From an uncultured Microbacterium sp. (GTDB taxonomy: Bacteria; Actinomycetota; Actinomycetes; Actinomycetales; Microbacteriaceae), in assembly GCA_913774665.1 (NCBI GenBank), contig CAJYHN010000005.1, forward strand, positions 55,528-119,527: DNA of 64,000 nt. The letters are read 5' to 3'. Within the stretch, counting starts at the first letter, position 1; each line of letters starts with the position of its first letter. The position numbers and the translations under genes were made by a program. Below are positions 5,933-26,670 of this stretch, piece by piece. The notes under the pieces were generated by a model. That model worked only from the letters and a program-made list of their open reading frames with translations. It was not told where the DNA came from and did no database searches.

Positions 5933-7429
5933 ATGAGCGCATACACCTCCGCGTTCGAGCTGTTCTCCATCGGGATCGGACCCTCGAGCTCCCACACCGT
6001 CGGCCCCATGAAGGCCGCCCTCCAGTTCGTCGCGCGACTCGAGGACGACGGTGTCCTCGAGCGGGTGGCATCCGTCTCGTGCGCCCTGTACGGCTCGCTC
6101 GGGGCGACCGGCATCGGCCACGGCACCCCCGACGCGGTCGTGGCGGGCCTCCAGGGTCTCGATCCCGAGACCGTGGACCCGGATGCCGTGCGGCGGGCGT
6201 GGTCCGACTGGCCCGAGGGGCGACGGCTCGCTCTCGCGGGTCGGCACGAGATCCCGTTCGCGAAGGCCGACATCGCGCTCGAGCCGCGCACGCGTCTTCC
6301 CGGCCACCCGAACGCGATGACGCTCGCCGCCCGCGACGGCGACGGGTCCGTGATCGCGGAAGACACGTTCTACTCGATCGGCGGCGGCTTCATCCGTCGC
6401 GAGGGCGAGCCCGCTCGCGTGGCGGCGGCGCCGGTGCCGCTCGACTTCGATGACGCGGCGACCCTGATCGAGCTCTGCGACGAGCGCGGCATCACGATCG
6501 CCGAGGCCGCACGCCTGAACGAGGCGGCCCTGCGCTCCGACGAAGAGATCGCGGCGGGCCTGGACCGCATCTGGGATGCCATGGCCGCGTGCGTGAACGC
6601 CGGACTCGAGAACGACGGCGTGCTGCCCGGCATCCTGAAGGTGAAGAGGCGGGCCGCAGTCATCCGCGGGCAGCTGGATGCCATCGAGGCCGACGGGCAT
6701 CGCGAGCTCCCGGGGGAGTGGCTCGGGGCGTTCGCGCTCGCCGTCAACGAGGAGAACGCCGCCGGCGGTCGTGTCGTCACCGCACCCACCAACGGTGCGG
6801 CGGGGATCCTGCCCGCCGTTGCGATGTACTGGTGGCGCTTCCTGGCCGACTCGGGCCTCGGAGCCGGCAACGCCGTCACGCCCTACGGCGAACTCGTCGG
6901 AAGCGCCCTGCTCGGCTACGACGGTCACGCGGTGACGCGCGGCGAGGTCGCGGCATGGGACGACGGGGACGTGGCCGAGGCGAACCGTCGACGCGGCATC
7001 CGCCGATTCCTGCTCACCGCGACCGCCCTCGGCTCGCTCTTCAAAGCCAATGCATCGATCTCGGGCGCCGAGGGCGGCTGCCAGGCAGAGGTCGGGTCCG
7101 CGTGCGCGATGGCGGCCGGTGGTCTGACCGCGGTCATGGGCGGGACCAATCGGCAGATCGAGAACGCCGCCGAGATCGCCATGGAACACCACCTCGGTCT
7201 CACGTGCGACCCCGTCGGTGGGCTCGTGCAGATCCCGTGCATCGAGAGGAACGCGATCGCGGCATCGACCGCGGTGACGGCGGCCCGGCTCGCCCTCCGC
7301 GGCGACGGGTCCCACTTCGTGTCGCTGGACGCCGTCGTCGAGACGATGCGTCAAACGGGGATCGATATGTCGACGAAGTACAAGGAGACCAGCGAGGGCG
7401 GTCTCGCGGTGAACGTCATCGAGTGCTGA
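5933..7429 (+). CDS. sdaA: L-serine ammonia-lyase (single-chain L-serine dehydratase)
   Basis: 498-residue [4Fe-4S] enzyme converting L-serine to pyruvate and ammonia. Seen: the family signature GPSSSHTVGPM near residue 18, the beta-domain YGSLGATG, NEENAAGGRVVTAPTNGAAG, and the cluster cysteines in GGCQAEVG, LTCDPVGG and IPCIERNA. It ends with the usual C-terminal KYKETSEGGLAVNVIEC, whose last Cys plugs the active site in known structures. It is ~44 residues longer than E. coli SdaA because of an insertion at ~300-355. TACGCT at 5921-5926 ends 6 bp before the ATG, implying a leaderless mRNA. Confidence 0.95.
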   Translation: MSAYTSAFELFSIGIGPSSSHTVGPMKAALQFVARLEDDGVLERVASVSCALYGSLGATGIGHGTPDAVVAGLQGLDPETVDPDAVRRAWSDWPEGRRLALAGRHEIPFAKADIALEPRTRLPGHPNAMTLAARDGDGSVIAEDTFYSIGGGFIRREGEPARVAAAPVPLDFDDAATLIELCDERGITIAEAARLNEAALRSDEEIAAGLDRIWDAMAACVNAGLENDGVLPGILKVKRRAAVIRGQLDAIEADGHRELPGEWLGAFALAVNEENAAGGRVVTAPTNGAAGILPAVAMYWWRFLADSGLGAGNAVTPYGELVGSALLGYDGHAVTRGEVAAWDDGDVAEANRRRGIRRFLLTATALGSLFKANASISGAEGGCQAEVGSACAMAAGGLTAVMGGTNRQIENAAEIAMEHHLGLTCDPVGGLVQIPCIERNAIAASTAVTAARLALRGDGSHFVSLDAVVETMRQTGIDMSTKYKETSEGGLAVNVIEC

Positions 7430-7443
7430 GGGGCACCCGCCGC

Positions 7444-7875
7444 TCAGTCCTGTGCGCGCAGTTTCGCGGTGAGGGAGTGCAGCTGAGCGAGTTCGTCGTC
7501 GTCGAGCCGGGCCATGCGCTCGGCGATCGACCGGCCATGCGCGGCGGCGATACGGCGGAAGGTCACGGCGCCGGTCTCGGTGGCCGTGACGAGAGAGCCG
7601 CGGCCGTCCTCGGGGTCGGCGCACTTGGTCAGCAGGCCCCGTGACACCATGCGCTCGACCAGGCGCGACACGCTCGGCTGGCTGATGAGCATGTTGCCGG
7701 TGACGTCGCGCAGGCGTGCGGTCATGCGCGGGGCGCGCGTGACGGTGAGGAGCACGTCGTACTCCGCCTGGGTCAGCTCGGTGCTTTCGAAATCCGACCG
7801 GATGTCTTCGAAGACCTCGTGCTGGGCGCGGAAGAGGCTCTCCCAGGCCTGCACGGCGAGACGGCGATCGGTCAT
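7444..7875 (-). CDS. MarR-family transcriptional regulator
   Basis: 143-residue winged-helix dimeric regulator. Seen: helix-turn-helix at ~50-80 (MTARLRDVTGNMLISQPSVSRLVERMVSRGLL) and the wing with the conserved D-x-R (DPEDGRGSLVTAT). Ligand and targets are unknown. ATG 7875 is chosen over upstream in-frame starts because TACGCT (complement of 7882-7887) ends 6 bp before it, giving a leaderless mRNA, and the protein then has normal MarR length. It lies convergent to sdaA with a 14-nt gap and ~50 nt downstream of the repeat/hairpin element copy 1. Confidence 0.9.
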   Translation of the reverse strand: MTDRRLAVQAWESLFRAQHEVFEDIRSDFESTELTQAEYDVLLTVTRAPRMTARLRDVTGNMLISQPSVSRLVERMVSRGLLTKCADPEDGRGSLVTATETGAVTFRRIAAAHGRSIAERMARLDDDELAQLHSLTAKLRAQD

Positions 7876-7925
7876 AGGTTCAGCGTAGGGCCGAGGGGGA
7901 CGAGTGTGCCGCACCCGGGGCAAGA

Positions 7926-8027
7926 GTAAGGGCCGGTCGGAGAGGCTTCCGGCCGGCCCTTGTCCCTGCACCAAGAGTGTCCTGCAATCACATGTCGGTA
8001 GCTGCCACAGCAAAACAACTACCGTGC
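7926..8027 (-). ncRNA. Candidate small RNA, copy 1 (duplicated element)
   Basis: Minus-strand candidate RNA of ~100 nt. A TATAGA -10 (complement of 8034-8039) precedes it; a 9-bp hairpin CGGTAGTTG/CAGCTACCG with loop TTTTGCTGTGG lies just after the start and a 14-bp GC-rich hairpin (7928-7961) ends it. An almost identical unit occurs at 15994-16091. The two copies are identical over the first part and differ only in a short linker and the terminal hairpin. Strand and transcription are inferred; no homology to a named RNA family is recognised. Confidence 0.45.
7928..7961 (-). terminator. Terminal hairpin of element copy 1
   Basis: Arms 7928-7941 and 7948-7961 form 14 pairs, with a T-G at 7937/7952 that is a wobble on the plus strand but an A-C mismatch on the minus strand. 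No long U-tract. It lies 52 nt upstream of the MarR start, so it could also attenuate read-through. Confidence 0.55.
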
Positions 8028-8056
8028 GAGCACTCTATAACGGTGAGGTAACGGAG
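7974..8056. repeat. 83-bp direct repeat, copy 1
   Basis: Identical over all 83 bases to 16038-16120, same orientation, 8.06 kb apart. Flanking similarity (terminal hairpin, a shared GCACCCGG, and ACGGAG followed by near-identical bases) shows that the duplicated unit was originally ~150 bp. No target-site duplications seen. Confidence 0.95.
8038..8054. promoter_or_regulatory. Tandem 11-bp-spaced operator-like site in copy 1
   Basis: TAACGG-TGAGG-TAACGG: two identical hexamers one helical turn apart, just upstream of and touching the minus-strand TATAGA -10. This layout is typical of OmpR/PhoB-type response regulators such as MtrA. The identity of the regulator is a guess. Confidence 0.4.
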
Positions 8057-8228
8057 GGGAAGAGGTTCCCGTTATATTTTCGTGATTTCTTCCGGGGCTC
8101 GTTCGGAGGGCGCCGGGGACCCGGCCATTGCGTTATCCGTCCCGCGCCTGGCGCGTCGTTAGGAGCGGTACGCAAGAACGCGGCAGCGGGGGAGTAGGTT
8201 CGCTTCATCCTCATCGCTTAGGGATCCC
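8057..8228. other. Intergenic, upstream of the ABC operon
   Basis: AT-richer than its surroundings at 8066-8092 (GTTATATTTT...). TAGGTT (8195-8200) could be the -10 of the operon, with the GTG start ~29 nt further on. I see no good -35 and no strong ribosome-binding site before the GTG. Confidence 0.35.
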
Positions 8229-11156
8229 GTGCGCCTCTCACCCTCTTCGTCGCGCGTCGTCTTCGGTGGCATGGTCGCCCTCGTCGCCGCGGTGACGACG
8301 GCGCTCGCCGTGCTCGTGCCCACCCTGACCGAGCAGGCCGGTGACGCCGGGGCGCGCAGCGTCGTCGCCGCCCGCTCAGGAGGCGAAATCGGCCTCGACC
8401 TCGGACTCCCGGCATCCGGAGACGTCGCCGCGCAGGACGATCTGGTGCGTCGCACGATCGCCCGCGTCATGCCGGCCGGTGTCGAGCTCTCGATCGAGAG
8501 GACCGAGACCGCGGGGCTCCTCGACGTGGGGACGGGGCGCGCCTATTTCGCGAGTATCGACGGGCCCGCCTTGCCGCTCGACGCCGGTCGATGGCCCGCC
8601 GCCGCCGCCGGCGAGGCCGCCCTCGGCTCAACGGTCGCCGAGACGCTGGGCATCGCCATCGGTGACACCCTCGCCCTCGGCGGGCGCACGGTGCAGGTCA
8701 CGGGGCTGTGGTCGTCGTCGCGCGCGTCAGCGGATCGGTGGTTCGGCGTGCGAGCGGCCTTCGCCGAGGGCGGGGGAGAGGGACCCGTCGCGGTATCGGC
8801 GGACGTCGTCGACGCCGCCGCCACCGCGGACGGTCTCTCGCGCGAGGTGCACTGGACGCTGCGCCCGGACGCCGCGCACCTCGACCTCGCGACGTTGCAG
8901 GGGGTGAGCGCGGGGTGGCGGGCGCTCCCGGACGCTCTGGCGGCGGAAGGGGTGGATGCCGCGGGCATCGAAACCGCCGGAGCCCTCGTCCCGACCGCGC
9001 AGCTCGCGTCGGCCCGCGCCGCCGTGCTGAACGCGGCCGCGCCCGTTTCGCTCACGACCGTCGCTCTCGCCTCGCTCGCGGTGACGACCCTCTTCGCCGC
9101 TCTGCTGGTGGACTCCGCGGCCGCCGAGCGGCGGATCCGCTGGGCGCGGGGCCAACCGCTGACGCGCATCACCGCCGCCGAGTCGGTGCGGGGACTCGTT
9201 CCCGGCGTCGTCGGTGCGATCGTCGGTGCGGTCTCGGTCTTCATCGCGCTCGCGCCGTCCGTTGCCGTCGTCCCCTGGATGATCGGTGCCGTGGTGGCGG
9301 GTTCTGTGATTCCGGCGGTGCTCGTGGCCGTCCTCGCCGCCCGCGACGTGAGCGTCCTCGGTCGCGCGGAGGGGGCCGCGTCGCCGTCGCGTCGGTGGGG
9401 TGCCGCAGTCGCGGCATCCGTCGTGCTCCTCGTGGCAGGCTTCACGACCTGGCGTGCGCTCACGCTCGGGTCGGTCGCGGGCGACGTTCGCGGCGGCCTC
9501 CCACCCGATCCCGTCGCCGTCGCGGCTCCCGCGGCACTCCTACCCGCCGTGGTCCTCGTGGCGACGGCCGCCCCGCTGCTGCTCACGCGGCGACTCCGGG
9601 AGCGGCGTGCGCAAGCGGGTCGCTCCACCGTGTTCCTGTCCGCGATGGGCGCGGCGCGGCGCCCGTTCGCCCTCGCCGCGATCATCGCCGTCGTGGGTGT
9701 GGCTGTCGCGCAACTCGGCTTCGCCGCGGTGTACCAGTCGACGTGGGAGGCGGGGTATCGCACCGCTCTCGCCGCCCAGGAGGGAACAGGTCTGCGGGTC
9801 GCGAGCGACGGTGAACAGCTGACGCCCGCGGTGCTCGACCGCGTCGCCGCGGTCGAGTCGGTTGCGGGAGTCGTGCCCGTGTGGACGGCGAACACCTCGA
9901 TCGCCGCGCGTTCGGCCTCGCTCGTGATCGCCTCCTCCGCCGCCGTGACCGCCCTCGCCGATCCCGCGGTCCCCGATCGTGACCGCCTGGCAGAGGGGGC
10001 GCGATCGGACGCTCCCGGCCCTCTTCTCCCCGAGAAGACACGAGCCCTGCGTGTGCAGGTGCGGGCGACGGATGCCACGGCGCAGGCTGCCGCGGTCGTG
10101 CTCGTGGACGGCTGGGGGCGGGTGACCTCCGTCGACGCCGGGAGCGACGGGGTCTTCGCGATCCCCGCTGTCTCCGTCGGCCCCGGAGGGTCATGGCGGC
10201 TGGCCGCGGTCGAGGTGGCCGTGTCGACGGCCGACGAGTTCGGGGCCCTGATCGCGATCGACGGCGTGAGCGTCGACGGAGCACCGCTCGACCTGGGCAC
10301 CGCTGTGATGCCCGTCGACATCAGCGGGGAGGCGATCGACATGCAGACGACGGCGGGTCCCGCCGAGGTGGCCGTCGGCAGCGCGATCACCCGGGTGCGG
10401 TTCGTGCCGGTCGCATCGACCGCCTCCGCCGTCGTCTCGCGGGCGTTCGCCGCGGCCTCCGGTGTGGCAGAGGGCGACAGTCTTCCGCTCTCGCTCGCGC
10501 CCGGTGCCGAATCGCGGCCCGTCCGCGTCGCCGCGGTCGTTCCGGTCATCCCCGGAGCGCCCCTCGATTCGGCCGTCTTCGTCGACGGCGGGACGGCGCT
10601 GTCGGCGCGCTTGCGTACCGCCACGGCACTCCCGGGCGCAGACGGAGCCTGGATCGCATCGGGTGCCGATCCCGAGCCCGTCGCCGCGGTGCTGCCCGAC
10701 GGCTCGCGGCTCGCGGGCACCGCCGCCGACGACGGGTACGTCGTGCTGTCGAAGGTGCCGACGTTGCTCTGGACGGGTGCCGTGGGCCTCGGAAGCCTTG
10801 CCGTGGCGGGGCTCGCCGCGATCGCCCTCGTCGCACGTCGGTCGAGGCGCGACGAAGCGATGTCGCTCCGCGTGATCGGTGTCGCAGCGGCAGCGCGCCG
10901 GCGCCTGCGCGTGACGGAGGCCGCCTCCGCGGTGGCGGCGGGCGCGCTGGTCGCCGTGGTGGCGACGGCGGTGACCGCGGTGCTTCTCCTGCCCGTCGTG
11001 ATCGCCGGGGCCCTCCCCCGAGCGATCTCGGTGGACTTCGTGGTCGATCCCGTGCTCGCTGGCGGTGTCGTCGTTCTCGCCGTGCTCGTCGCACTGGCCG
11101 TCACCGTGTGTTTCGCGATGCGCGACGACACCGCCGCGGACGGCGGCGAACGGTGA
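8229..11156 (+). CDS. FtsX-like ABC transporter permease (large)
   Basis: 975-residue membrane protein, first gene of a four-gene ABC operon. One N-terminal helix (~10-30), a large extracytoplasmic domain, a group of helices at ~275-460 and ~480-505, a second large extracytoplasmic domain (~510-855), and a C-terminal FtsX-type helix set (~860-965). This matches the duplicated FtsX permeases of MacB/LolCE-type exporters and mechanotransducers. Substrate unknown. GTG start at 8229; a short cytoplasmic end then TM1. Its stop overlaps the start of the second permease (GTGA). Confidence 0.85.
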   Translation: MRLSPSSSRVVFGGMVALVAAVTTALAVLVPTLTEQAGDAGARSVVAARSGGEIGLDLGLPASGDVAAQDDLVRRTIARVMPAGVELSIERTETAGLLDVGTGRAYFASIDGPALPLDAGRWPAAAAGEAALGSTVAETLGIAIGDTLALGGRTVQVTGLWSSSRASADRWFGVRAAFAEGGGEGPVAVSADVVDAAATADGLSREVHWTLRPDAAHLDLATLQGVSAGWRALPDALAAEGVDAAGIETAGALVPTAQLASARAAVLNAAAPVSLTTVALASLAVTTLFAALLVDSAAAERRIRWARGQPLTRITAAESVRGLVPGVVGAIVGAVSVFIALAPSVAVVPWMIGAVVAGSVIPAVLVAVLAARDVSVLGRAEGAASPSRRWGAAVAASVVLLVAGFTTWRALTLGSVAGDVRGGLPPDPVAVAAPAALLPAVVLVATAAPLLLTRRLRERRAQAGRSTVFLSAMGAARRPFALAAIIAVVGVAVAQLGFAAVYQSTWEAGYRTALAAQEGTGLRVASDGEQLTPAVLDRVAAVESVAGVVPVWTANTSIAARSASLVIASSAAVTALADPAVPDRDRLAEGARSDAPGPLLPEKTRALRVQVRATDATAQAAAVVLVDGWGRVTSVDAGSDGVFAIPAVSVGPGGSWRLAAVEVAVSTADEFGALIAIDGVSVDGAPLDLGTAVMPVDISGEAIDMQTTAGPAEVAVGSAITRVRFVPVASTASAVVSRAFAAASGVAEGDSLPLSLAPGAESRPVRVAAVVPVIPGAPLDSAVFVDGGTALSARLRTATALPGADGAWIASGADPEPVAAVLPDGSRLAGTAADDGYVVLSKVPTLLWTGAVGLGSLAVAGLAAIALVARRSRRDEAMSLRVIGVAAAARRRLRVTEAASAVAAGALVAVVATAVTAVLLLPVVIAGALPRAISVDFVVDPVLAGGVVVLAVLVALAVTVCFAMRDDTAADGGER

Positions 11157-13711
11157 GGCGGTGGTGGCGCACGATCGCACCGCATCGTTTCGCCCTGGCT
11201 CTCGTGTCGGTCGCGGTCGCTCTGCTCGTGGCATCCGGGGTCGCCGTTCCGCGCGTGCTCGACACGGTGGCCGAGGCGCGACTGGCGGCTGCACTTTCTC
11301 CGGAGAGCGACGCGGAGGCGGCCGCTGCGGCGAACGTCGTGTTGAGCGCCGACCTCGACGACTTCGCGTTGGGCGCCGACACCGTCGACGACGTGGCCAC
11401 CACCCTCGAGCGATACCCCTCGACCGTCGATGAGCCGCTGCGGTCGGCGCTGGGGGAGCCAGCGTGGCTTCTGACGTTCCCCGACGTCACGGCGGTCGCC
11501 GTCGACGGCTCGCTCCTGCGCGTCCGCGTGGGAACGGCGCCCGAGTACCAGCGGCAGTGGTCGGTCGTCGAGGGCACGCCCCCGCGACCTGCTGTCGTCG
11601 GCGCTCCGGTCGAGATCGCCCTCGAGCAGTCCGTTGCGGCGCGCGTCGGCGCGAGCGTCGGCACCGCGTGGCAGGGTCCCGACGGTTCCTTGGTCGTCAC
11701 GGCACTGATCAGCGACGCGCAGGGCGGTCCGTCGGCGCAGGACGTCTTCCACCGGGCGGCTTCGTCCCGCGTCAATGCGACCGAGGACCTCGTCACGGTC
11801 GGGGCCTACGTCGACCCGGGGTCGGTCGCGACGCTCGGCCCGCAGCTCGCGCGCGCTCAGCTGGTCGCGACCCTGCCCGTGCGTGCACAGGGCCTGACCT
11901 CACGCGACATCTCAGGTCTCGATAAGGCGGCGAACAAGACCTCCGCCCAGGGGACCACCCTGGCGAGCGGATTCCCCGTGACGGTCTCGACGCGACTGTC
12001 CGCCCTGCTCGATCGGGTGCGCACCGCGCAGGACGCGCTCGTCGCCCTCACGGCCCTCCTCGTCGCCGCGCCCCTCGGCGCCGCGATCCTCCTGAGCGCT
12101 CTCGCGGTCACCGCGGCCGAGCGCCGCCGCGCGGGGGAGCGTCGTCTCGTCTCGGCGCGTGGTGCGGCGACCGGCCGCGTCATGGCGAGCGCGGCCGTCG
12201 AGGCGTCGCTCGCGGCTGCTGTCGGAGGGGCGGTCGGGTGGGCGCTCGCGGTCGCCCTGACGCCTCGATCGACGGTTCCGGATGCCGCCGCCACCGGGCT
12301 CGGCCTCATCGCCGTCGCCGTCGTCGGGGTGGCGGCGGTGGCCGCGACGTGCGCGCGCCAGGCGGTGCGGCCGACGCGGGTGCCGGCGGTGGTGCGGATC
12401 GCGCGGGACGGGGTCGTGATCGCCGTCACCGTCGTCTCCCTCTCGCTCCTGCTCGGCCGCGGTGTCCCCGCCGCGGGAGTGGATCCGTTGCTCAGCCTCA
12501 GCGTGCTGCTGGTGGCGGTCTCCGCGGGTCTCGTGCTCGCTCGCGTGCTCGGCCCGCTGGTGAGTCCCCTGGCCGGGATCGCGTCGCGCGGCCGTTCCCT
12601 CGGCGCCGCTCTCGCCTTGTCCCGGCTGGCGCGAGGGGGCGGTCGCGCCCTGCAGATCACCGGCGTCACGATCGCCGTGGCCACCGCGACCCTCTCCCTC
12701 GGCCTGGGGCAGCTGACCGGCGATGGCATCTCGGCCGCGGCTTTCCGCAGCGTCGGTGCCGACGTGCGCGCGTGCGGCGACGATGCCTCCGTCACCGCGA
12801 CGAGCCGAGAGGCGACCTCGGTCGACGGGGTCGCCGCCGTCGCACGGGTGCGCCGGCTCGACGGCATCCCGGTGACGGGTGACGCACGACTGCGGCCCGT
12901 CACGGTGCTGTCCGCATCGACCGCGGACCTGCACCGCGTCACGCCCGCCGTCCCCGAGCTCGGCGACACCGCTCCCGTCTCGGCGGTGATGTCGCGTTCT
13001 GCGGCGGACCTGCTCGAGGGCACGGTGACGGTCGGGGGTCGCGAGGTGTCGGGCGTGACCGTCGTCGATGACGACGCCCTGCCAGCGTTCGCGGACTCGT
13101 GGGTGCTGCTCGACGATCGCGCGGCGGAGGCACTCGCCGCACCCGTCGGGGCGTCGTGCCTCGTCATCGCCGCGATGCCCGGCGCGCCCTCGGACGTCGT
13201 CGCGGAACGCGTGCGCGAGGCGGGTCCCGGGCTCGAGGTGGTCGACGTGGCGTACGAGACGGCTCAGCGGCTGACCGCGCCCACCGCGTCGACGATCCTG
13301 GAGCTCCTGGCGGGTGCCGCCGCTCTCGCGGTCCTCACCTCTCTCGCGCTCTCGGTCATCACGGAAGCCGCAGCGGCGCCCGAGCGGCGGCGGACGCGCG
13401 CGGTGCTGTCGGCGTTGGGAGCGGGTCGGTTCCGCGGCGTGGTCGCGCTCGAGACGGTGCCTCTCGCGCTCGTCGCAGCCGTCGTCGGGTGGGTCGTCGG
13501 GTGGGTGGGGGTCGCGGTCGTCGCGGGCGCGGGCGGGCTCGCCGACCGCCTGGGCATCGCCGCACCGGTATCGATCGCAAGCGTGGTGGCGACGGCGGGG
13601 GCGGCTGTACTGATCGTCGGGGTGATCGGTGCCGCGGCGGCGCTCACGGCCACGATCGCAGGAGAGCGCCGCTTCGCACGTCACGATGAGGGAGAGGAGC
13701 GAGGCTCATGA
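11153..13711 (+). CDS. FtsX-like ABC transporter permease (second)
   Basis: 852-residue permease paralogous in layout to the preceding one: N-terminal helix (~12-32), extracytoplasmic domain (~33-285), helix bundle (~290-500), second extracytoplasmic domain (~520-690) and a C-terminal FtsX domain with helices ~715-740, ~765-790 and ~810-835. GTG 11153 overlaps the previous stop by 4 nt; the frame is open far upstream but there only antiparallel coding is seen. Probably forms a heterodimer with the first permease, driven by the two ATPases that follow. Confidence 0.85.
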   Translation: MRRWWRTIAPHRFALALVSVAVALLVASGVAVPRVLDTVAEARLAAALSPESDAEAAAAANVVLSADLDDFALGADTVDDVATTLERYPSTVDEPLRSALGEPAWLLTFPDVTAVAVDGSLLRVRVGTAPEYQRQWSVVEGTPPRPAVVGAPVEIALEQSVAARVGASVGTAWQGPDGSLVVTALISDAQGGPSAQDVFHRAASSRVNATEDLVTVGAYVDPGSVATLGPQLARAQLVATLPVRAQGLTSRDISGLDKAANKTSAQGTTLASGFPVTVSTRLSALLDRVRTAQDALVALTALLVAAPLGAAILLSALAVTAAERRRAGERRLVSARGAATGRVMASAAVEASLAAAVGGAVGWALAVALTPRSTVPDAAATGLGLIAVAVVGVAAVAATCARQAVRPTRVPAVVRIARDGVVIAVTVVSLSLLLGRGVPAAGVDPLLSLSVLLVAVSAGLVLARVLGPLVSPLAGIASRGRSLGAALALSRLARGGGRALQITGVTIAVATATLSLGLGQLTGDGISAAAFRSVGADVRACGDDASVTATSREATSVDGVAAVARVRRLDGIPVTGDARLRPVTVLSASTADLHRVTPAVPELGDTAPVSAVMSRSAADLLEGTVTVGGREVSGVTVVDDDALPAFADSWVLLDDRAAEALAAPVGASCLVIAAMPGAPSDVVAERVREAGPGLEVVDVAYETAQRLTAPTASTILELLAGAAALAVLTSLALSVITEAAAAPERRRTRAVLSALGAGRFRGVVALETVPLALVAAVVGWVVGWVGVAVVAGAGGLADRLGIAAPVSIASVVATAGAAVLIVGVIGAAAALTATIAGERRFARHDEGEERGS

Positions 13712-14646
13712 CGGACAGCTCGGTCGAGATCGAGTGCGTCGATCTGGTCAGGATCTACCGTGGAGCGGGTGTCGAGGTGCAGGCCCTGCAGGGACTGAAT
13801 CTGCGGGTCGAGAGGGGCGAACTCACGGCGATCGTGGGGGCGTCGGGGTCGGGCAAGTCGACGCTGTTGTCGATCCTGTCGGCCCTCGATGTCGCGAGCG
13901 CGGGACGCGCCCATGTCGCCGGTCGAGACCTTCTCGCGCTCACCCCGCGCCAGCGGGCGGAGTACCGCCGCACGGTGGCGGGATTCGTGTGGCAGCAGAC
14001 GGCCCGGAACTTCCTCCCGGGGCTGACGATCGCCGAGAACCTCGATCTCACGTTGTCGGTGGGTCGCATACCGCGCCGCGAGCGCTCCGCGCGCGCGGCG
14101 GAGATGCTGTCGATGCTCGACGTGACGGGGGTCGCCGACCGCCGGCCGGGCCAGGTCACCGGGAGCGAACGCCAGAGGGCGGCGATCGCGCTGGGCCTGG
14201 CCAACGGATGCCGCGTGCTGTTCGCCGACGAACCCACCGGAGAGCTCGACGACGCCAACTCCGCCCAGGTGCTCGAAGCGATGCGCGCCGTGAACGAACG
14301 TTCCGGGGTGACGGTGCTCATCGTGACCCACGATCAGAGCGTTGCCGACCACGTACGCCGCACCGTCGGCATCCGGGACGGACGCACCTCGGTCGAGGTG
14401 TTCCGCGACGAGGCGGGAGCAGGTCGAGACGCGCGCGAGTACGCGGTGCTCGATCGAGCCGGCCGTCTACAGCTTCCGCGCGAGCACATCGACCGGCTCG
14501 GCATGCGCGACCGCGTGCGGTTGCAGCTCGAGAACGACCACATCCGCGTGCATCCGGCCGAGACCGCGGAGGGTTCCGCGGCGGCGACGGAAAGGTCGGA
14601 TGCCGCGAGCCCCCAGGCCGCGACCAGAAGGAGCCGGCGACGATGA
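13708..14646 (+). CDS. ABC transporter ATP-binding protein with C-terminal AbrB-like domain
   Basis: 312 residues, MacB/LolD-type NBD. Walker A GASGSGKST (~44-52), Q-loop FVWQQ, Walker B VLFADEPTG and H-loop THD are intact. The ABC signature reads TGSERQR instead of LSGGQ. After the NBD, residues ~245-285 (from YAVLDRAGRLQLP to ENDHIRVHP) look like a SpoVT/AbrB swapped-hairpin unit, which is unusual for this family. A low-complexity Ala/Ser/Arg tail follows. ATG overlaps the permease stop (ATGA); GAGGGAGAGGAG upstream gives a good ribosome-binding site. Confidence 0.88.
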   Translation: MTDSSVEIECVDLVRIYRGAGVEVQALQGLNLRVERGELTAIVGASGSGKSTLLSILSALDVASAGRAHVAGRDLLALTPRQRAEYRRTVAGFVWQQTARNFLPGLTIAENLDLTLSVGRIPRRERSARAAEMLSMLDVTGVADRRPGQVTGSERQRAAIALGLANGCRVLFADEPTGELDDANSAQVLEAMRAVNERSGVTVLIVTHDQSVADHVRRTVGIRDGRTSVEVFRDEAGAGRDAREYAVLDRAGRLQLPREHIDRLGMRDRVRLQLENDHIRVHPAETAEGSAAATERSDAASPQAATRRSRRR

Positions 14647-15323
14647 GCGGAGACGACATGATCAGGGTCGCGGGCCTCACCCGCTCCTTCGGGCGCGGGG
14701 CTGCGCGCACGACTGCTCTCTCCGACGCGTCGATCTCGGTCGCCGCCGGGGAGTTCGTCGTGCTGCGGGGCCCGTCGGGGTCGGGTAAGACGACGTTGCT
14801 GACCCTCGCCGCGGGCCTGGATGAGCCCGACGCGGGCGAGGCATGGATCGGCGATGTGCGCGTGACGGGGGCGGGGGAGGCGGATGCCGCGCGCGTCCGC
14901 CGTGACGTGATGGGTTTCGTCGATCAGGACTTCGCGCTGGTTCCCTTCCTGACCGCCGCCGAGAACATCGAGCTCCCGCTCCGGCTGCGCGAGGCGGGAG
15001 CGCGCGAGCGTCGATCGCGGGTGGCGGAGATGATCGCTGCGGTCGGTCTCGCCGACCATGCCGCGCAGCGGCCCGAGGAGTTGTCGGGCGGGCAGCAGCA
15101 GCGCGTTGCGGTGGCGCGTGCCCTCGTGCACCGGCCGACGGTGCTCATCGCCGACGAGCCCACGGCCCAACTCGACAGCGGCACGGCGGCATCCGTCATC
15201 TCGCTCATCCTGGAGCACGTGCGCCGGGACGGGATGGCCGCGCTCGTCGCGTCGCATGACATCACCGTCGCGGAACGCGCGGACCGGGTGATCGAGATCC
15301 ACGACGGACGAGTGCGGGTGTGA
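14643..15323 (+). CDS. ABC transporter ATP-binding protein
   Basis: 226-residue NBD of the MacB/LolD type with all canonical motifs: Walker A GPSGSGKTT (~41-49), Q-loop VDQDFALVPFLTAAEN, signature LSGGQQQR, Walker B VLIADEPTAQLD and H-loop SHD. Last gene of the operon; ATGA overlap with the previous ATPase. As its partner NBD has a deviant signature, a heterodimer would have one canonical and one degenerate ATP site (inference from the general ABC mechanism). Confidence 0.92.
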   Translation: MSGDDMIRVAGLTRSFGRGAARTTALSDASISVAAGEFVVLRGPSGSGKTTLLTLAAGLDEPDAGEAWIGDVRVTGAGEADAARVRRDVMGFVDQDFALVPFLTAAENIELPLRLREAGARERRSRVAEMIAAVGLADHAAQRPEELSGGQQQRVAVARALVHRPTVLIADEPTAQLDSGTAASVISLILEHVRRDGMAALVASHDITVAERADRVIEIHDGRVRV

Positions 15324-15329
15324 GCCGCG

Positions 15330-15947
15330 TCAGCGACCGCGCACGTGATTCCACTGCGTGATGACCTCGGTGCCGTGCTCGAAGCCGAGCTCGCTGACGG
15401 CCGAGGTGCCGAGCACGAAGTAGCGCCCGCCCGCGGCGGTGAGCCCGAGCCACGTGCCCGCGAGCGCGCGCAGGAAATGCCCGTGCGAGAACAGCAGGAC
15501 CTGCTGGCCTGAGCGCACGCGAGGGCGCAGCTCCTCGAGCAGCGACTCCGCTCGGGCCGTGACCTGGGCGACGCTCTCGCCGGGTGTCTCGCCGGCGGGG
15601 GTGCCGTCCCAGACGGTCCACGCGCGGCCGAGGCGCTCGATGATCTCGGGGGTCGTGAGGCCCTCGTACGCGCCGTAGTCCCACTCGACCAGGCGCGGGT
15701 CGCATCGCGCGTCGGGATAGCCCGCACGGGCGGCGGTCTCCACCGCGCGCTGCAGGGGGCTCGTGAGCACGAGGTCGTATTTCCGAGTGGCCAGGAGGGT
15801 GCCGGCGAGCTCCGCCTTGTACGCACCGGTCTCGGTGAGCGGGATGTCGGTGAGTCCCGTGTGCTTGCCGGTGCGGCTCCACGCCGTCTCGCCGTGGCGC
15901 ACGAGAACGATGCGCCCGTCTGGCTCGGTCAGCTCTTCGTCCTTCAC
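15330..15947 (-). CDS. Histidine phosphatase (phosphoglycerate mutase-like) family protein
   Basis: 205-residue branch-1 histidine phosphatase. The catalytic RHGET motif (~17-21) and the partner TSPLQRAVETA (~65-75) and second His in FSHGHFLRAL are present. Substrate unknown; members include phosphatases of sugar phosphates, alpha-ribazole phosphate and others. GTG 15947 preceded by GGAAGGATGG is preferred over in-frame upstream TTG codons that lie within the repeat element. It is convergent with the ABC operon (6-nt gap) and lies downstream of repeat copy 2. Confidence 0.85.
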   Translation of the reverse strand: MKDEELTEPDGRIVLVRHGETAWSRTGKHTGLTDIPLTETGAYKAELAGTLLATRKYDLVLTSPLQRAVETAARAGYPDARCDPRLVEWDYGAYEGLTTPEIIERLGRAWTVWDGTPAGETPGESVAQVTARAESLLEELRPRVRSGQQVLLFSHGHFLRALAGTWLGLTAAGGRYFVLGTSAVSELGFEHGTEVITQWNHVRGR

Positions 15948-15993
15948 GCATCCATCCTTCCGCGCCGCGGGCTCCTCGGCACCCGGAGACGGA

Positions 15994-16091
15994 CGAAGGG
16001 CCGGTCGGGAGATTCCCGACCGGCCCTTTCCTGCACCAGAGTGTCCTGCAATCACATGTCGGTAGCTGCCACAGCAAAACAACTACCGTGC
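15994..16091 (-). ncRNA. Candidate small RNA, copy 2 (duplicated element)
   Basis: Second copy of the unit described at 7926-8027, on the minus strand with the same TATAGA -10 (complement of 16098-16103), the same 9-bp hairpin, and a perfectly paired 14-bp terminal hairpin. The linker is a few bases shorter than in copy 1. It lies ~50 nt upstream of the histidine phosphatase start, as copy 1 does for the MarR gene. Confidence 0.45.
15996..16028 (-). terminator. Terminal hairpin of element copy 2
   Basis: AAGGGCCGGTCGGG (15996-16009) pairs perfectly with CCCGACCGGCCCTT (16015-16028), loop of 5. Compared with copy 1 the loop and inner pairs have changed while the stem length is kept. Confidence 0.6.
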
Positions 16092-16120
16092 GAGCACTCT
16101 ATAACGGTGAGGTAACGGAG
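16038..16120. repeat. 83-bp direct repeat, copy 2
   Basis: Identical to 7974-8056 over 83 bases. The tandem TAACGG site is at 16102-16118. The two copies bracket the MarR-side intergenic region, the four-gene ABC operon and the phosphatase gene. Confidence 0.95.
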
Positions 16121-16151
16121 CGGAAGGGGTCGGCGACCGTTCTTTCCTGTT

Positions 16152-16694
16152 TCATAAGTTCCGCGCGCGGAGGGCATTCCTCCCCAGCTGTGCGGTGTCG
16201 CGATCTCTCCCCCCGTTCTGAGAAGCGGCCTCGACGTCCGCGGGCCTGAGGGCGCGCGTCCAGGCCACCTCGCGCTCGAGCTGACCCGTGCTCCGGAACA
16301 GCCGTACCTGGTACGTACCGGCCAGCGCGGCGGCGAGCTCATCGCGATCCGCGGGGGCGAAGCCCAAGCCCTGCCAGAAGGGCCCCGAGCGGCGGCTGAA
16401 CAACCACGCTCGGGACGCACCCTCCTCCGCGGCCCGCGACAGAGCGAAGCGAGCCAGGTGGGAGCCGCGCCCCCGAGAGCGGGCCTCCGGCCGAACGGCC
16501 ACGCTGCGGATCAGGGCGTGCCTGCCGTCCGCGCTCAGTTCGTAGCCGGTGCTTCCCGTCACGACGCCGGTGGCATCGCGCGCGATCCAGAGACGGACCG
16601 TCGGCGCATCGAGGCCGCTCAGGGTGAGGTCGACGGCTGCGAGGAAGCCCGTCACCGCGTCGACGTCCTCCGGTCGGCAGCGTTCGAGGTTCAT
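16152..16694 (-). CDS. GNAT-family N-acetyltransferase (ArsN2/arsinothricin-type resemblance)
   Basis: 180 residues. Seen: the GNAT core with IRSVAVRPEARSRGRGSHLA (motif A, acetyl-CoA pyrophosphate loop R-x-x-G-x-G, ~68-85) and the terminal LFSRRSGPFWQGLGFAPADRDEL strand. The FWQ.LGF.P.DR pattern resembles the small ArsN2-like group, but no arsenic genes are nearby, so substrate is left open. ATG 16694 chosen; an in-frame TTG 12 nt upstream is the alternative. The C-terminal ~35 residues are not part of the GNAT fold. Confidence 0.8.
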   Translation of the reverse strand: MNLERCRPEDVDAVTGFLAAVDLTLSGLDAPTVRLWIARDATGVVTGSTGYELSADGRHALIRSVAVRPEARSRGRGSHLARFALSRAAEEGASRAWLFSRRSGPFWQGLGFAPADRDELAAALAGTYQVRLFRSTGQLEREVAWTRALRPADVEAASQNGGRDRDTAQLGRNALRARNL

Positions 16695-16768
16695 GTCTCG
16701 AGTCAATCAGCTGCGGCGATGCCCACCGCGGATCCGTGCCCCGCCCGTACGCCTGAAAGGATGGGAGC

Positions 16769-17578
16769 GTGCCCCACGACATCCGCCTCATCGCCGTCGA
16801 CATGGACGGCACCCTCCTCGACGGCGAAGGGAACGTCCCCGCACCCCTGTGGGAGCTCCTGCCGCGCCTGGCCGAGCGCGGAGTGGCCTTCGTCCCCGCC
16901 TCGGGCCGGCAGCTCGCCACCCTGCAGCGGTCGTTCGGCGAGGCGGCGGGCGAGATGACCTTCATCGCCGAGAACGGCGCCTATGTCGTGAGCGCGGGCG
17001 TCGAGGTGTCCTCTGACACGATCGATCTCGAGGTCGTCGAACGGGTGGTCGGGCATCTCCGCGGTCTCGGCGAGCGGGGATACGACCTGGGGGTCGTGCT
17101 GTGCGGCAAGCGGTCGGCATACATCGAACGCTCCGACGCCGCCTTCCGCCGCCAAGCGGAGACGTATTACGCCGCGCTCGAGGTCGTCGACGACGTCCTC
17201 GCGGTCGACGACGAGGTGCTCAAGATCGCGATCTACGACTTCGCCGTCGCCGAGGAGAGTGTCGCTCGCGCGCTCGACGAGGTCGCCGAGACCCACCGCG
17301 TCGTCGTCTCGGGGCGCCACTGGGTCGACATCATGAACCTCGACGTCGACAAGGGCGCAGCCCTGCGCCGCCTGCAGACCGCCCTCGAGGTCACGCCCGC
17401 GCAGACCGCCGCGTTCGGCGACTACCTGAACGACCTCGAGATGCTGGATGCCGCGGACTGGTCGTACGCGATGCGCGAGGCCCACCCCGAGGTCGTCGCT
17501 CGCGCCCGCTACCGTGCCCCCTCGAACCTCGACCACGGCGTGCTGACGACGATCGACGAGCTCTTCCCCGACGCCTGA
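16769..17578 (+). CDS. Cof-type HAD-IIB family phosphatase
   Basis: 269-residue cytosolic phosphatase. HAD motif I DMDGTLLD (~11-18), motif II PASGRQ, the Cof-type C2 cap in the middle, the motif III lysine (DKGAALRRL) and motif IV FGDYLNDLEML are all present. Acts on sugar phosphates or flavin/pyridoxal phosphates in relatives. GTG start with AAAGGATGGGAG site upstream. Stands alone between two minus-strand genes. Confidence 0.92.
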   Translation: MPHDIRLIAVDMDGTLLDGEGNVPAPLWELLPRLAERGVAFVPASGRQLATLQRSFGEAAGEMTFIAENGAYVVSAGVEVSSDTIDLEVVERVVGHLRGLGERGYDLGVVLCGKRSAYIERSDAAFRRQAETYYAALEVVDDVLAVDDEVLKIAIYDFAVAEESVARALDEVAETHRVVVSGRHWVDIMNLDVDKGAALRRLQTALEVTPAQTAAFGDYLNDLEMLDAADWSYAMREAHPEVVARARYRAPSNLDHGVLTTIDELFPDA

Positions 17579-17612
17579 GGTTGCAGACCCCGACGGCGCA
17601 GGAATCGAACGC

Positions 17613-18815
17613 TCAGACCCCCGACGCGTCCAGCGCCGCACCCAGGTCGGCGAGCAGGTCGTCGGGGTCTTCGAGACCGACCGACAGCCGCAGGTGTCCG
17701 TAACGCCGGAACTCCTCCGGGTAGGTCGCCGTCCGCGGGCCGTCGGCGGCGGTGTGCACGATCAGGCTGTCGTCGTGGCCGAGCGAGAAGCCCGAGGTGA
17801 CGAGCCGCAGCTGCGCGACGAACCTGTTCTGCACCTCGGGCCCGCCGTCGACGGCGAACGCCATCATCCCGCCGTATCCGCGCCCGCCGAACTGGCGCCC
17901 TGCGATCCCATGGCCGGGGTGGGACTCGAGGCCCGGATACGCCACGAAGGCCACCCGCGGATCCGCCTCGAGGAACGCGGCAATGCGCTCCGCGGACGAC
18001 AGGTGCTGACGCAACCGCAGGGGGAGGGTGACCGAGCCCCGCTCGATCATCCAGGCGTTGAAGGGCGAGATGACGCCGCCGACGTCGACCATCGCGTCGG
18101 CCTTGATCGGCTCGATCAGCTCCGAGCGCCCGATCACCGCCCCGCCCATCGCATCGCCGTGGCCGTTGATGTACTTCGTCAGCGAGTGCACGACCAGATC
18201 GGCGCCGTCGGCGAGAGGTCGGTAGAACGGAGGCGGAGTGAAGGTCGAGTCCACCATCAGCAGTGCTCCGGCCGCGTGCGCGATGTCCGCGATCGCGGCG
18301 ACGTCCGTGACTTTGGTGGTCGGGTTCGCGATCGCCTCGACGCACACGAGCGCGGTCTCGGGCCGCATCGCCGTGCGGACGGCATCCGGATCCGAGATGT
18401 CGACGAAGGTGGCGTGGATGCCGTAGCGACGGGGGAGCAGCTCGCTCCAAAGTCGCCACGTGGCCTCGTAGACGACGTCGCTCACCACGACGTGATCACC
18501 CGCGCTCACGTGCGTGAAGAACACCGCGTGGAGGGCGGCGACCCCGGAGGCGAGGGCGACGGCCTCTTCTCCGCCCTCGAGGGCGGCGAGCTTCCGCTCG
18601 AGAGCGAGCTGGTTGACGCCGGTGTTGCGGGTGTAGAGCCCGGGCGCGGTGGCCGACCAACTGATCTCGCTCGGGTCCTCGGGGAGCTCGTAGGAGTTCG
18701 ACATGACCAGCGGGGTGCGCAGGGCGCGTGTGCTGTCGAGCTGCTTGCCGGCGTGGACGGCGAGGCTCGCCTCGGCGAGGGTGCCGCTGTCGGTGCGGTC
18801 GGGGCGCTCCGTCAT
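17613..18815 (-). CDS. PLP-dependent trans-sulfuration enzyme (Cys/Met metabolism family)
   Basis: 400-residue fold-type I PLP enzyme, cystathionine gamma-synthase/gamma-lyase/methionine gamma-lyase family. Seen: Y-x-R near YTRNTGVNQLALERKLAALEGGE, the GVAALHAVFF phosphate-binding region, the D-S pair MVDSTFTPPPFYRPLADGAD, and the Schiff-base lysine in HSLTKYINGHGD. Which reaction it catalyses cannot be settled from sequence alone. ATG 18815 is preceded by GGAAGGACGGCGAG. Divergent from the amino acid permease. Confidence 0.88.
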   Translation of the reverse strand: MTERPDRTDSGTLAEASLAVHAGKQLDSTRALRTPLVMSNSYELPEDPSEISWSATAPGLYTRNTGVNQLALERKLAALEGGEEAVALASGVAALHAVFFTHVSAGDHVVVSDVVYEATWRLWSELLPRRYGIHATFVDISDPDAVRTAMRPETALVCVEAIANPTTKVTDVAAIADIAHAAGALLMVDSTFTPPPFYRPLADGADLVVHSLTKYINGHGDAMGGAVIGRSELIEPIKADAMVDVGGVISPFNAWMIERGSVTLPLRLRQHLSSAERIAAFLEADPRVAFVAYPGLESHPGHGIAGRQFGGRGYGGMMAFAVDGGPEVQNRFVAQLRLVTSGFSLGHDDSLIVHTAADGPRTATYPEEFRRYGHLRLSVGLEDPDDLLADLGAALDASGV

Positions 18816-25947: not shown

Positions 25948-26670
25948 TCAGAACCGGTCGGGCGAAGGGGTCCCGTGTCCGTAGCGGATCGACACGTCGG
26001 CGTGGCGGTCGAAGCGGTACCCGACCCCGCGCACGGTGCGCACGATGTCCTCGTACACGCCGAGCTTCGCGCGCAGGCGCCGCACGTGCACATCGATGGT
26101 GCGCTCACCCGGGGCGTCTTCGTCGGTCGAGCCTTCCCAGAGGGATGCCACCAGCTCGGTGCGCTCGATCGTGCGGCCCTCGCGCAGCACGAGGTACTGC
26201 AGCAGCTCGAACTCCTTGAACGTGAACGCCGCGGACTCGCCGTCGATGAGCACGCGCTTGCGCGAGATGTCGACCACGACGCCACCCGGCGCGCGGTCCT
26301 CTTCGATGGGCTCGTCCTTGGTGCGCGCGATCGCCGACGGCTCGTGCAGGGCCAGACGCACCACGTCCACATCGCGTCCGCCGGACCCGACCGGCGCGAG
26401 AGCGACCGTCGCGTAGGTTTCGGCGGCGGGGGCCAGCTCGCCGAGCGTGCGTCGCAGGGCTTCGACGAGAGTGCCGAGGCTGACGCCGGCGGCGGCGGCC
26501 TTGGCCTCGTCGATGCCGACGTAGAGAGCGAAGCCCCGCGGGGCGGTGGTGGCGGGGGCGGCGGGGCGAGCGGCGGGGGCGGTCGCTGCGGTCGCGTGAG
26601 CAGCGGCGTCGCGGGCGGCGGGACGGACAGCGGCGGCGGAGGGGCGGTCGAGAACGGCGGAGATCGACAT
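25948..26670 (-). CDS. Orphan OmpR/PhoB-type winged-helix regulator without receiver domain
   Basis: 240 residues. C-terminal ~95 residues are a Trans_reg_C winged helix: GGVVVDISRKRVLIDGE, FTFKEFELLQYLVLREGRTIERTELVASLW, ERTIDVHVRRLRAKLG and VRTVRGVGYRF. The N-terminus has no phosphorylatable receiver: ~45 residues of Ala/Pro low complexity, then an ~75-residue alpha/beta segment (ALYVGIDEAKAAAAGVSLGTLVEALRRTLGEL). It probably acts as a non-canonical DNA-binding regulator. A leaderless Cys-rich leader peptide lies 178 nt upstream on the same strand. Confidence 0.88.
   Translation of the reverse strand: MSISAVLDRPSAAAVRPAARDAAAHATAATAPAARPAAPATTAPRGFALYVGIDEAKAAAAGVSLGTLVEALRRTLGELAPAAETYATVALAPVGSGGRDVDVVRLALHEPSAIARTKDEPIEEDRAPGGVVVDISRKRVLIDGESAAFTFKEFELLQYLVLREGRTIERTELVASLWEGSTDEDAPGERTIDVHVRRLRAKLGVYEDIVRTVRGVGYRFDRHADVSIRYGHGTPSPDRF

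Follow-up and report, generated by a model that had tools for sequence, protein, structure and literature searches.

Our analysis indicates that two copies of a repeat found in the window, i.e. the whole 64,000-nucleotide stretch of Microbacterium sp. DNA that was analysed, are probably genes for one stand-alone, trans-acting small RNA that would be controlled by MtrA, a regulator of the OmpR type, and would tune envelope or stress genes. For each copy, a minus-strand gene for a small RNA is predicted with near certainty, and the comparative data bear out the small RNA gene proposed by the first-pass annotation. OmpR-type control of the RNA promoter is predicted with good confidence and control by MtrA in particular appears somewhat probable, while the chances that the RNA pairs with mRNAs rather than binding a protein are about even. 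An RNA of about 96-100 nt would be read from the minus strand, starting at its own promoter of the sigma-70 type and ending at an intrinsic terminator.

The two copies, located at positions 7974-8056 and 16038-16120, are identical at 83/83 bases in a pairwise comparison, exactly as claimed by the first-pass annotation for a direct repeat of 83 bp, and a longer alignment of both extends over 93 nt with 98% identity. The genome they come from (3.58 Mb, 14 contigs) contains exactly two copies, no further one being matched at E <= 0.001. The first-pass annotation had named, as speaking against an RNA, a family of identical copies spread over the genome and unconnected with terminators. This is not what is found: there are two copies only and the terminator lies within the conserved unit. 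The identity had been taken to suggest selection or recent gene conversion. Conversion is not needed to explain the 83-bp identity since the same 83-mer also occurs in two other genomes (G016 and G024). Both copies of the window may simply have retained the common form of the 83-mer, gene conversion being a further possibility.

Copy 1 of the predicted small RNA (about 100 nt) lies at 7925..8025 on the minus strand, its start being placed 7 nt past the -10 box and its end at the terminator, and corresponds to a folding unit conserved in 73 copies from the genus. Copy 2 (about 96 nt), whose ends are likewise inferred, lies at 15993..16089 on the same strand. Read on the minus strand, the unit consists of a direct repeat GTTACCTCACCGTTAT, a -10 box TAGAGT, a 9-bp hairpin, a linker and a terminator hairpin. 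The direct repeat (8037..8052 in copy 1; the same sequence at 16101..16116 in copy 2; minus strand) has a period of 11 bp and resembles an MtrA box located in the -35/-10 spacer. The -10 hexamers lie at 8032..8037 and 16096..16101 on the minus strand. A -10 box on this strand had already been proposed and is retained, but not its placement as TATAGA: TAGAGT, located directly after GTTA, fits better because 73/73 genus copies retain TA...T (TANNNT) at this position. Upstream of copy 1, a pair of oppositely oriented repeats ATCACGAAAATATAAC (8071..8086, minus strand; loose pattern) is presumed to be a second regulator site, and no counterpart was recognised upstream of copy 2. Hairpin 1, which has a 9-bp stem and a loop UUUUGCUGUGG, lies at 7996..8024 in copy 1 and at 16060..16088 in copy 2 (both minus strand); this is the inner hairpin of the earlier annotation, present as CGGTAGTTG / CAGCTACCG. 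In copy 1 it is followed by a conserved linker that may form a small hairpin ACAUGUGAUUGCAGGACACUCUUGGUGCA (7967..7995, minus strand) and that includes CATGTGATTGCAGGAC, the sequence by which all 73 genus copies were identified. The intrinsic-terminator hairpins lie at 7928..7960 and 15996..16029 on the minus strand, that of copy 2 being supported by its fold and by covariation; their U tract is weak. As had been noticed, the 3' stems of the two copies are unlike in loop and inner pairs. A short unit enclosed by its own promoter and its own intrinsic terminator, as expected for a trans-encoded small RNA, can thus be recognised, by sequence only.

Covariation argues for this structure, and its G-U pairs assign it to a strand. 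The alignment A1 contains 65 distinct rows of the 73 genus copies (identical trimmed rows being merged and a cut copy from G053 omitted), and its 26-pair structure forms in 97.6% of the cells. Both sides change in 13/26 pairs; the two-sided changes fill 64 cells, whereas shuffles give 12.9 (0/500). The signal is lost, with 0-3 two-sided pairs left, once the partners are shifted by 1-3 columns. The covarying pairs sit in hairpin 1 (5/9) and in the terminator (8/12). On the minus strand, these two stems include 75 G-U cells versus 15 A-C cells, counts that would be swapped on the plus strand; therefore, the RNA is assigned to the minus strand, in agreement with the order of -10 box and terminator. 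The strand, left unsettled by the first-pass annotation, can hence be regarded as settled. The short second stem hardly varies and shows no two-sided change. Being nearly invariant, this second hairpin is therefore unproven by covariation; furthermore, single-sequence folds disagree about it, and L063 alone folds differently.

Unlike the stems, the loop and the linker appear almost fixed. The loop sequence TTTGCTGTGGC is found in 65/65 rows of A1 and GCTGTGGC in 34/43 rows of A4, an alignment of 43 chosen rows (6 from the genus, 37 from the family) that omits near-duplicates and the diverged L115, L116, L122, L124 and L127. In the linker, GATTGC and TGGTG are present in 43/43 rows of A4. A small coding gene beginning at a GTG of this linker is very improbable: GTGATTGCAGGACAC... 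stays open for some codons and AGGA precedes TTG/GTG, but the core has gained 1-2 nt in L109 and L113 and lost 2-5 nt in L110 and L126, changes that shift the frame, and the stretch ahead of the terminator differs in length by several nt. These indels rule out a conserved reading frame. The Rfam search proposed by the first-pass annotation (Rfam 15; window positions 6000-18000 and seven family loci) gave no match to a curated family near its gathering score, the overlapping matches (mir-1343, PtaRNA1 and mir-9201) reaching 20.9-25.6 bits for gathering scores of 47-95.5.

The copy count in Microbacteriaceae, also proposed earlier, shows how widespread the RNA gene is. With copy 1 as DNA query (E below 1e-20), 57/59 genomes of the genus Microbacterium, which NCBI assigns to Microbacteriaceae, gave a match; the two genomes without match are 83% and 44% complete. 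These 57 genomes contain 73 copies with CATGTGATTGCAGGAC, a number also obtained by an independent profile search. In G524, a genome of the same genus with 100% completeness, no match was found under strict filters. At the family level, the covariance model R1 has matches in 246/299 Microbacteriaceae genomes belonging to 74/85 genera and none in the other 53. Inspection of some of the weak rows showed that G111, G162, G197 and G281 have the terminator only, and they were counted out together with G387 (E 0.008); strongly diverged rows include L116, L124 and L127. After this correction, about 241 genomes and about 70 genera remain, most of them accepted by E-value alone. A second search of twenty of the 53 matchless genomes (12 of 1.7 Mb or less and 8 of 2.1-4.1 Mb), using a broader model and less strict filters, gave a clear member (9.5e-11) in one of the smaller genomes, G213, and a terminator-only match in G117. 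Outside the family, the sampled order (248 genomes) and class (246 genomes) gave only terminator look-alikes (4 and 1 matches, respectively). The four matches from the order were rejected as homologs, being terminator hairpins without promoter repeat, loop or core. Moreover, a pattern scan of named genomes returned at least 119 stretches. Among the 80 matches listed, 78 bear Microbacteriaceae names and the other two come from metagenome bins whose names stop at phylum or order. The family membership of 18 genera among the matches listed was checked against NCBI, and five further genera among them are, we assume, Microbacteriaceae as well.

Some genomes of the genus carry several copies. Two or more are present in 15/57 genomes, where copies from the same genome share 68 to 82 identical positions of 82, and 42/57 genomes have one copy. 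In G001, a 10-kb contig (G001:C6; L062, 3.4-6.7 kb) carries two identical inverted copies, and a third one is located on the large contig G001:C5 (L063); all three are identical over the 82 positions compared, possibly as a result of amplification or of an assembly artefact. These three copies, like the two identical copies that flank about 8 kb in the window, could be expected from a passive or mobile repeat. Such a repeat is nevertheless hardly conceivable, as most genomes of the genus have one copy, the sequence is conserved over about 70 genera with covarying stems, and neither an exact pattern match in viral contigs nor any match in plasmids was found. Copy number (two in the genome studied here), conservation and covariation rule out a passive repeat; an origin from phages or plasmids was likewise rejected, on the searches of viral contigs and plasmids.

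Gene neighbours were called with a simple open-frame script in which the RNA was masked, so that gene starts are rough. Each copy had been reported to end about 50 nt before a minus-strand gene, which agrees with our measurements: about 50 nt for copy 1 and 46 nt for copy 2, counted from the inferred 3' end of the RNA to the MarR start at 7875 and to a histidine phosphatase frame taken to 15947. The names given to both neighbours also agree with Pfam. The gene of the MarR-family regulator (7444..7875, minus strand; MarR_2, 6.7e-11), located outside the RNA, is the commonest downstream neighbour. Two sets of copies, which may share genomes, were considered: 114 copies from the genus and family set (3 more being too short) and 77 from the named set (4 too short). 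MarR is the next gene on the same strand within 300 nt in 51/114 and 45/77 copies, as would suit a leader or attenuator acting in cis on the MarR gene. Such a role is improbable: in 25/114 and 18/77 copies the gene that follows is encoded on the opposite strand, with the RNA still conserved, the terminator separates the RNA from MarR, and in four Cryobacterium loci (L151, L167, L170 and L206) the RNA gene lies between MarR and an orphan regulator gene and is inverted relative to both. Opposite-strand neighbours and inverted loci exclude a MarR leader as a general rule and therefore argue for a stand-alone unit. Nearness to MarR or to the histidine phosphatase is an inherited neighbourhood and not a rule.

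The order upp, orphan Trans_reg_C gene, RNA, MarR and photolyase is found, completely or in part, in several genera. In the window, positions 25948-26670 (minus strand) encode an orphan protein for which Pfam recognises a DNA-binding domain of the OmpR type but no receiver domain. In many other genera, the gene of a relative of this protein directly adjoins the small RNA; in the window, about 18 kb separate the orphan gene from copy 1. Two RNA units are about 0.9 kb apart in related genomes, G006 and G024 for example. The two units of the window are separated by an ABC transporter block (8229-15323), with an ATPase identified by Pfam and an FtsX-like permease match below the cut-off, and this block is apparently an insertion.

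The promoter hints at a candidate regulator. GTTAY-N6-GTTAT, a direct repeat of 11 bp that adjoins the -10 box in the -35/-10 spacer, is present in 72/73 genus copies, the region being cut by a contig end in the 73rd, and in 45/50 family rows (a set that omits L094, L095, L102 and L121 of the family loci). The five other rows are the diverged L124 and four terminator-only rows; L129-L132 are such rows. The second pair, located upstream, is recognisable in 43/73 genus copies and 23/50 family rows by a loose pattern used without control. We considered a MarR operator and rejected it: 11-bp repeats stand in tandem both upstream and in the spacer, and the spacing of the two pairs in Microbacterium is, on our reading, about one helical turn off that in other genera. 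Tandem sites of the OmpR type fit this better than a fixed MarR palindrome.

In the excerpts of the literature at hand, MtrA boxes are described as G-T/A-n-A-C/T direct repeats separated by four bases (PMC6265350), as GTnAcC-n5-GTnAcn (PMC13189361) or, in C. glutamicum, as (A/G)TAACAAT repeats with a 3-bp linker (PMC3353115), with a period of about 11 bp in two of these sources (PMC6265350, PMC13189361). According to excerpts of the C. glutamicum study, MtrA represses when its box is near the -10 box and activates when it is upstream of the -35 box, and the Corynebacterium targets include the cell wall peptidases mepA, mepB, nlpC and rpf2 (PMC3353115). The repeat that abuts the -10 box would be bound by a response regulator of the OmpR type, and MtrA, which belongs to the MtrAB envelope system, is the most likely one. 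At this position MtrA would repress the RNA, and the oppositely oriented pair located upstream may serve to activate it. Compared with the MtrA regulon as excerpted (PMC3353115, PMC6265350, PMC13189361), the RNA promoter has the same GTnAC-type direct repeats of 11 bp, cell-wall peptidase and related genes lie near the motif, and MtrA is encoded in the genome itself (NF040689, 383.8 bits for a cut-off of 300); the difference is that the predicted regulated product here is an RNA.

A search for GTTAYN6GTTAY in 14 genomes of 13 genera gave 88 matches, against 23 for the reversed pattern. Sixteen of them are promoters of the small RNA, with all 14 genomes represented, and nine, from 9/14 genomes, are the upstream pair of the same promoters. 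Thirteen others correspond to GTTACTCACGTGTTAC, presumably a 16S rRNA sequence, leaving 75 matches without them. Among the 50 remaining sites, 38 were examined (20 loci with 21 sites having been picked by eye from the list); the neighbours of 22, again chosen by eye, were annotated and 16 sites were left unannotated. Twelve of the 38 have in their vicinity a gene for an M23 peptidase (3), a transglycosylase-like protein (3, one called through a domain of NCBIfam and one scoring slightly below the cut-off of Pfam), a GDPD protein (4, from four genera), a polysaccharide deacetylase (1) or a subtilase (1), and the neighbours of 10 of the 22 annotated sites belong to other families or to none. Since annotation followed a choice by eye and the count has no background rate to be set against, this is a pattern and not a statistical test. 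At four loci from four genera (L283, L312, L309 and L319), a GTTAC direct repeat stands just upstream of a GDPD gene that apparently encodes a signal sequence; by eye, the repeat has the orientation and position expected for activation.

The repeat could also serve another OmpR-type protein, for instance the orphan Trans_reg_C protein related to 25948-26670, a less likely solution that still deserves attention. Its gene adjoins the RNA in the order described above, it has a DNA-binding domain of the right type, and the 3.7-kb mtrA locus showed no GTNAY-N6-GTNAY repeat, which also favours a regulator other than MtrA. However, the repeat is also located near M23 peptidase, transglycosylase-like and GDPD genes, a set of genes that is MtrA-like, and the orphan protein lacks a receiver domain in Pfam. 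MtrA is kept as the more probable candidate.

Under MtrA control, the RNA would tune envelope or stress genes after transcription by means of its invariant loop and linker, acting by short-seed pairing with mRNAs or by protein binding. Targets were sought in the same 14 genomes, each scan having a single reversed pattern as control, which is a weak one. For the loop (11-mer), 19 exact complements were found, versus 17 for the reversed pattern; 15 of the 19 are the RNA gene itself, leaving four perfect complements elsewhere. For the second loop (12-mer), with one mismatch allowed, there are 68 complements, including 15 self matches, versus 139 for the reversed pattern; outside the RNA gene, 2 matches are perfect and 51 have one mismatch. 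Perfect long complements being so few (4 and 2 in 14 genomes), there is therefore no such target common to all genomes. Complements of these two conserved stretches even look depleted when self matches are removed (4 versus 17 and 53 versus 139, with one control each), perhaps reflecting avoidance of chance pairing. Duplex energies computed at 983 gene starts near RNA loci did not favour MarR starts. Serine dehydratase starts gave one low z-score (-3.8, n = 8), which is not independent evidence since it comes from related genomes and from many tests.

These results leave some room for an RNA that is not antisense and instead binds and titrates a protein, such as RNA polymerase, a ribosome factor or an RNA-binding regulator. 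We consider this possible although unlikely. The scarcity of perfect long complements would suit it, as would a loop and linker that do not change within the genus, unlike the covarying stems; but no protein partner is known, and seeds of 6-8 nt or mismatched matches would escape a search for complements. A trans-acting small RNA that tunes envelope or stress genes remains our preferred reading, with pairing and protein binding both considered as its mode.

OmrA and OmrB of enterobacteria are under OmpR control. They are described as twin small RNAs in excerpts of a published study (PMC12692685). The likeness lies in two near-identical small RNAs located close together and in a predicted regulator that comes from the OmpR family and belongs to an envelope-sensing system. 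The present RNA differs in having no sequence relation to them, since no Rfam family matches near its gathering score, in having its main predicted site in a repressing position and in being duplicated in only part of the genus (15/57 genomes). Ms1 RNA, with a length of about 300 nt, is much longer than the present RNA of about 96-100 nt. Both are conserved actinobacterial RNAs without obvious antisense target, judging for Ms1, a 6S-like RNA of Actinobacteria, from excerpts of its description (PMC9130861); the searched text of this paper contains no 'Microbacteri', 'Clavibacter' or 'Leifsonia'. In addition, among the titles and abstract openings listed for MtrA, none concerns an RNA with an MtrA box, and a literature search whose coverage mostly excluded subscription journals found no description of the present RNA. 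As far as these searches go, the kind of RNA (trans-acting small RNA) is known, and its family, its spread and its MtrA-type promoter are undescribed.

To our knowledge, few small RNAs have been described in Actinobacteria outside Mycobacterium, Streptomyces and Corynebacterium. Microbacteriaceae include plant pathogens and common bacteria of soil and water, and most of the genera examined retain this RNA, yet it has no match in Rfam 15. As a more tentative and rather doubtful extension, it might be a core RNA of the whole family and the RNA arm of MtrAB, switched by MtrA through the site at the -10 box, with an invariant loop that adjusts envelope growth post-transcriptionally by acting on a protein or on short mRNA seeds. 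Such an RNA would tie a widespread envelope regulator to RNA control.
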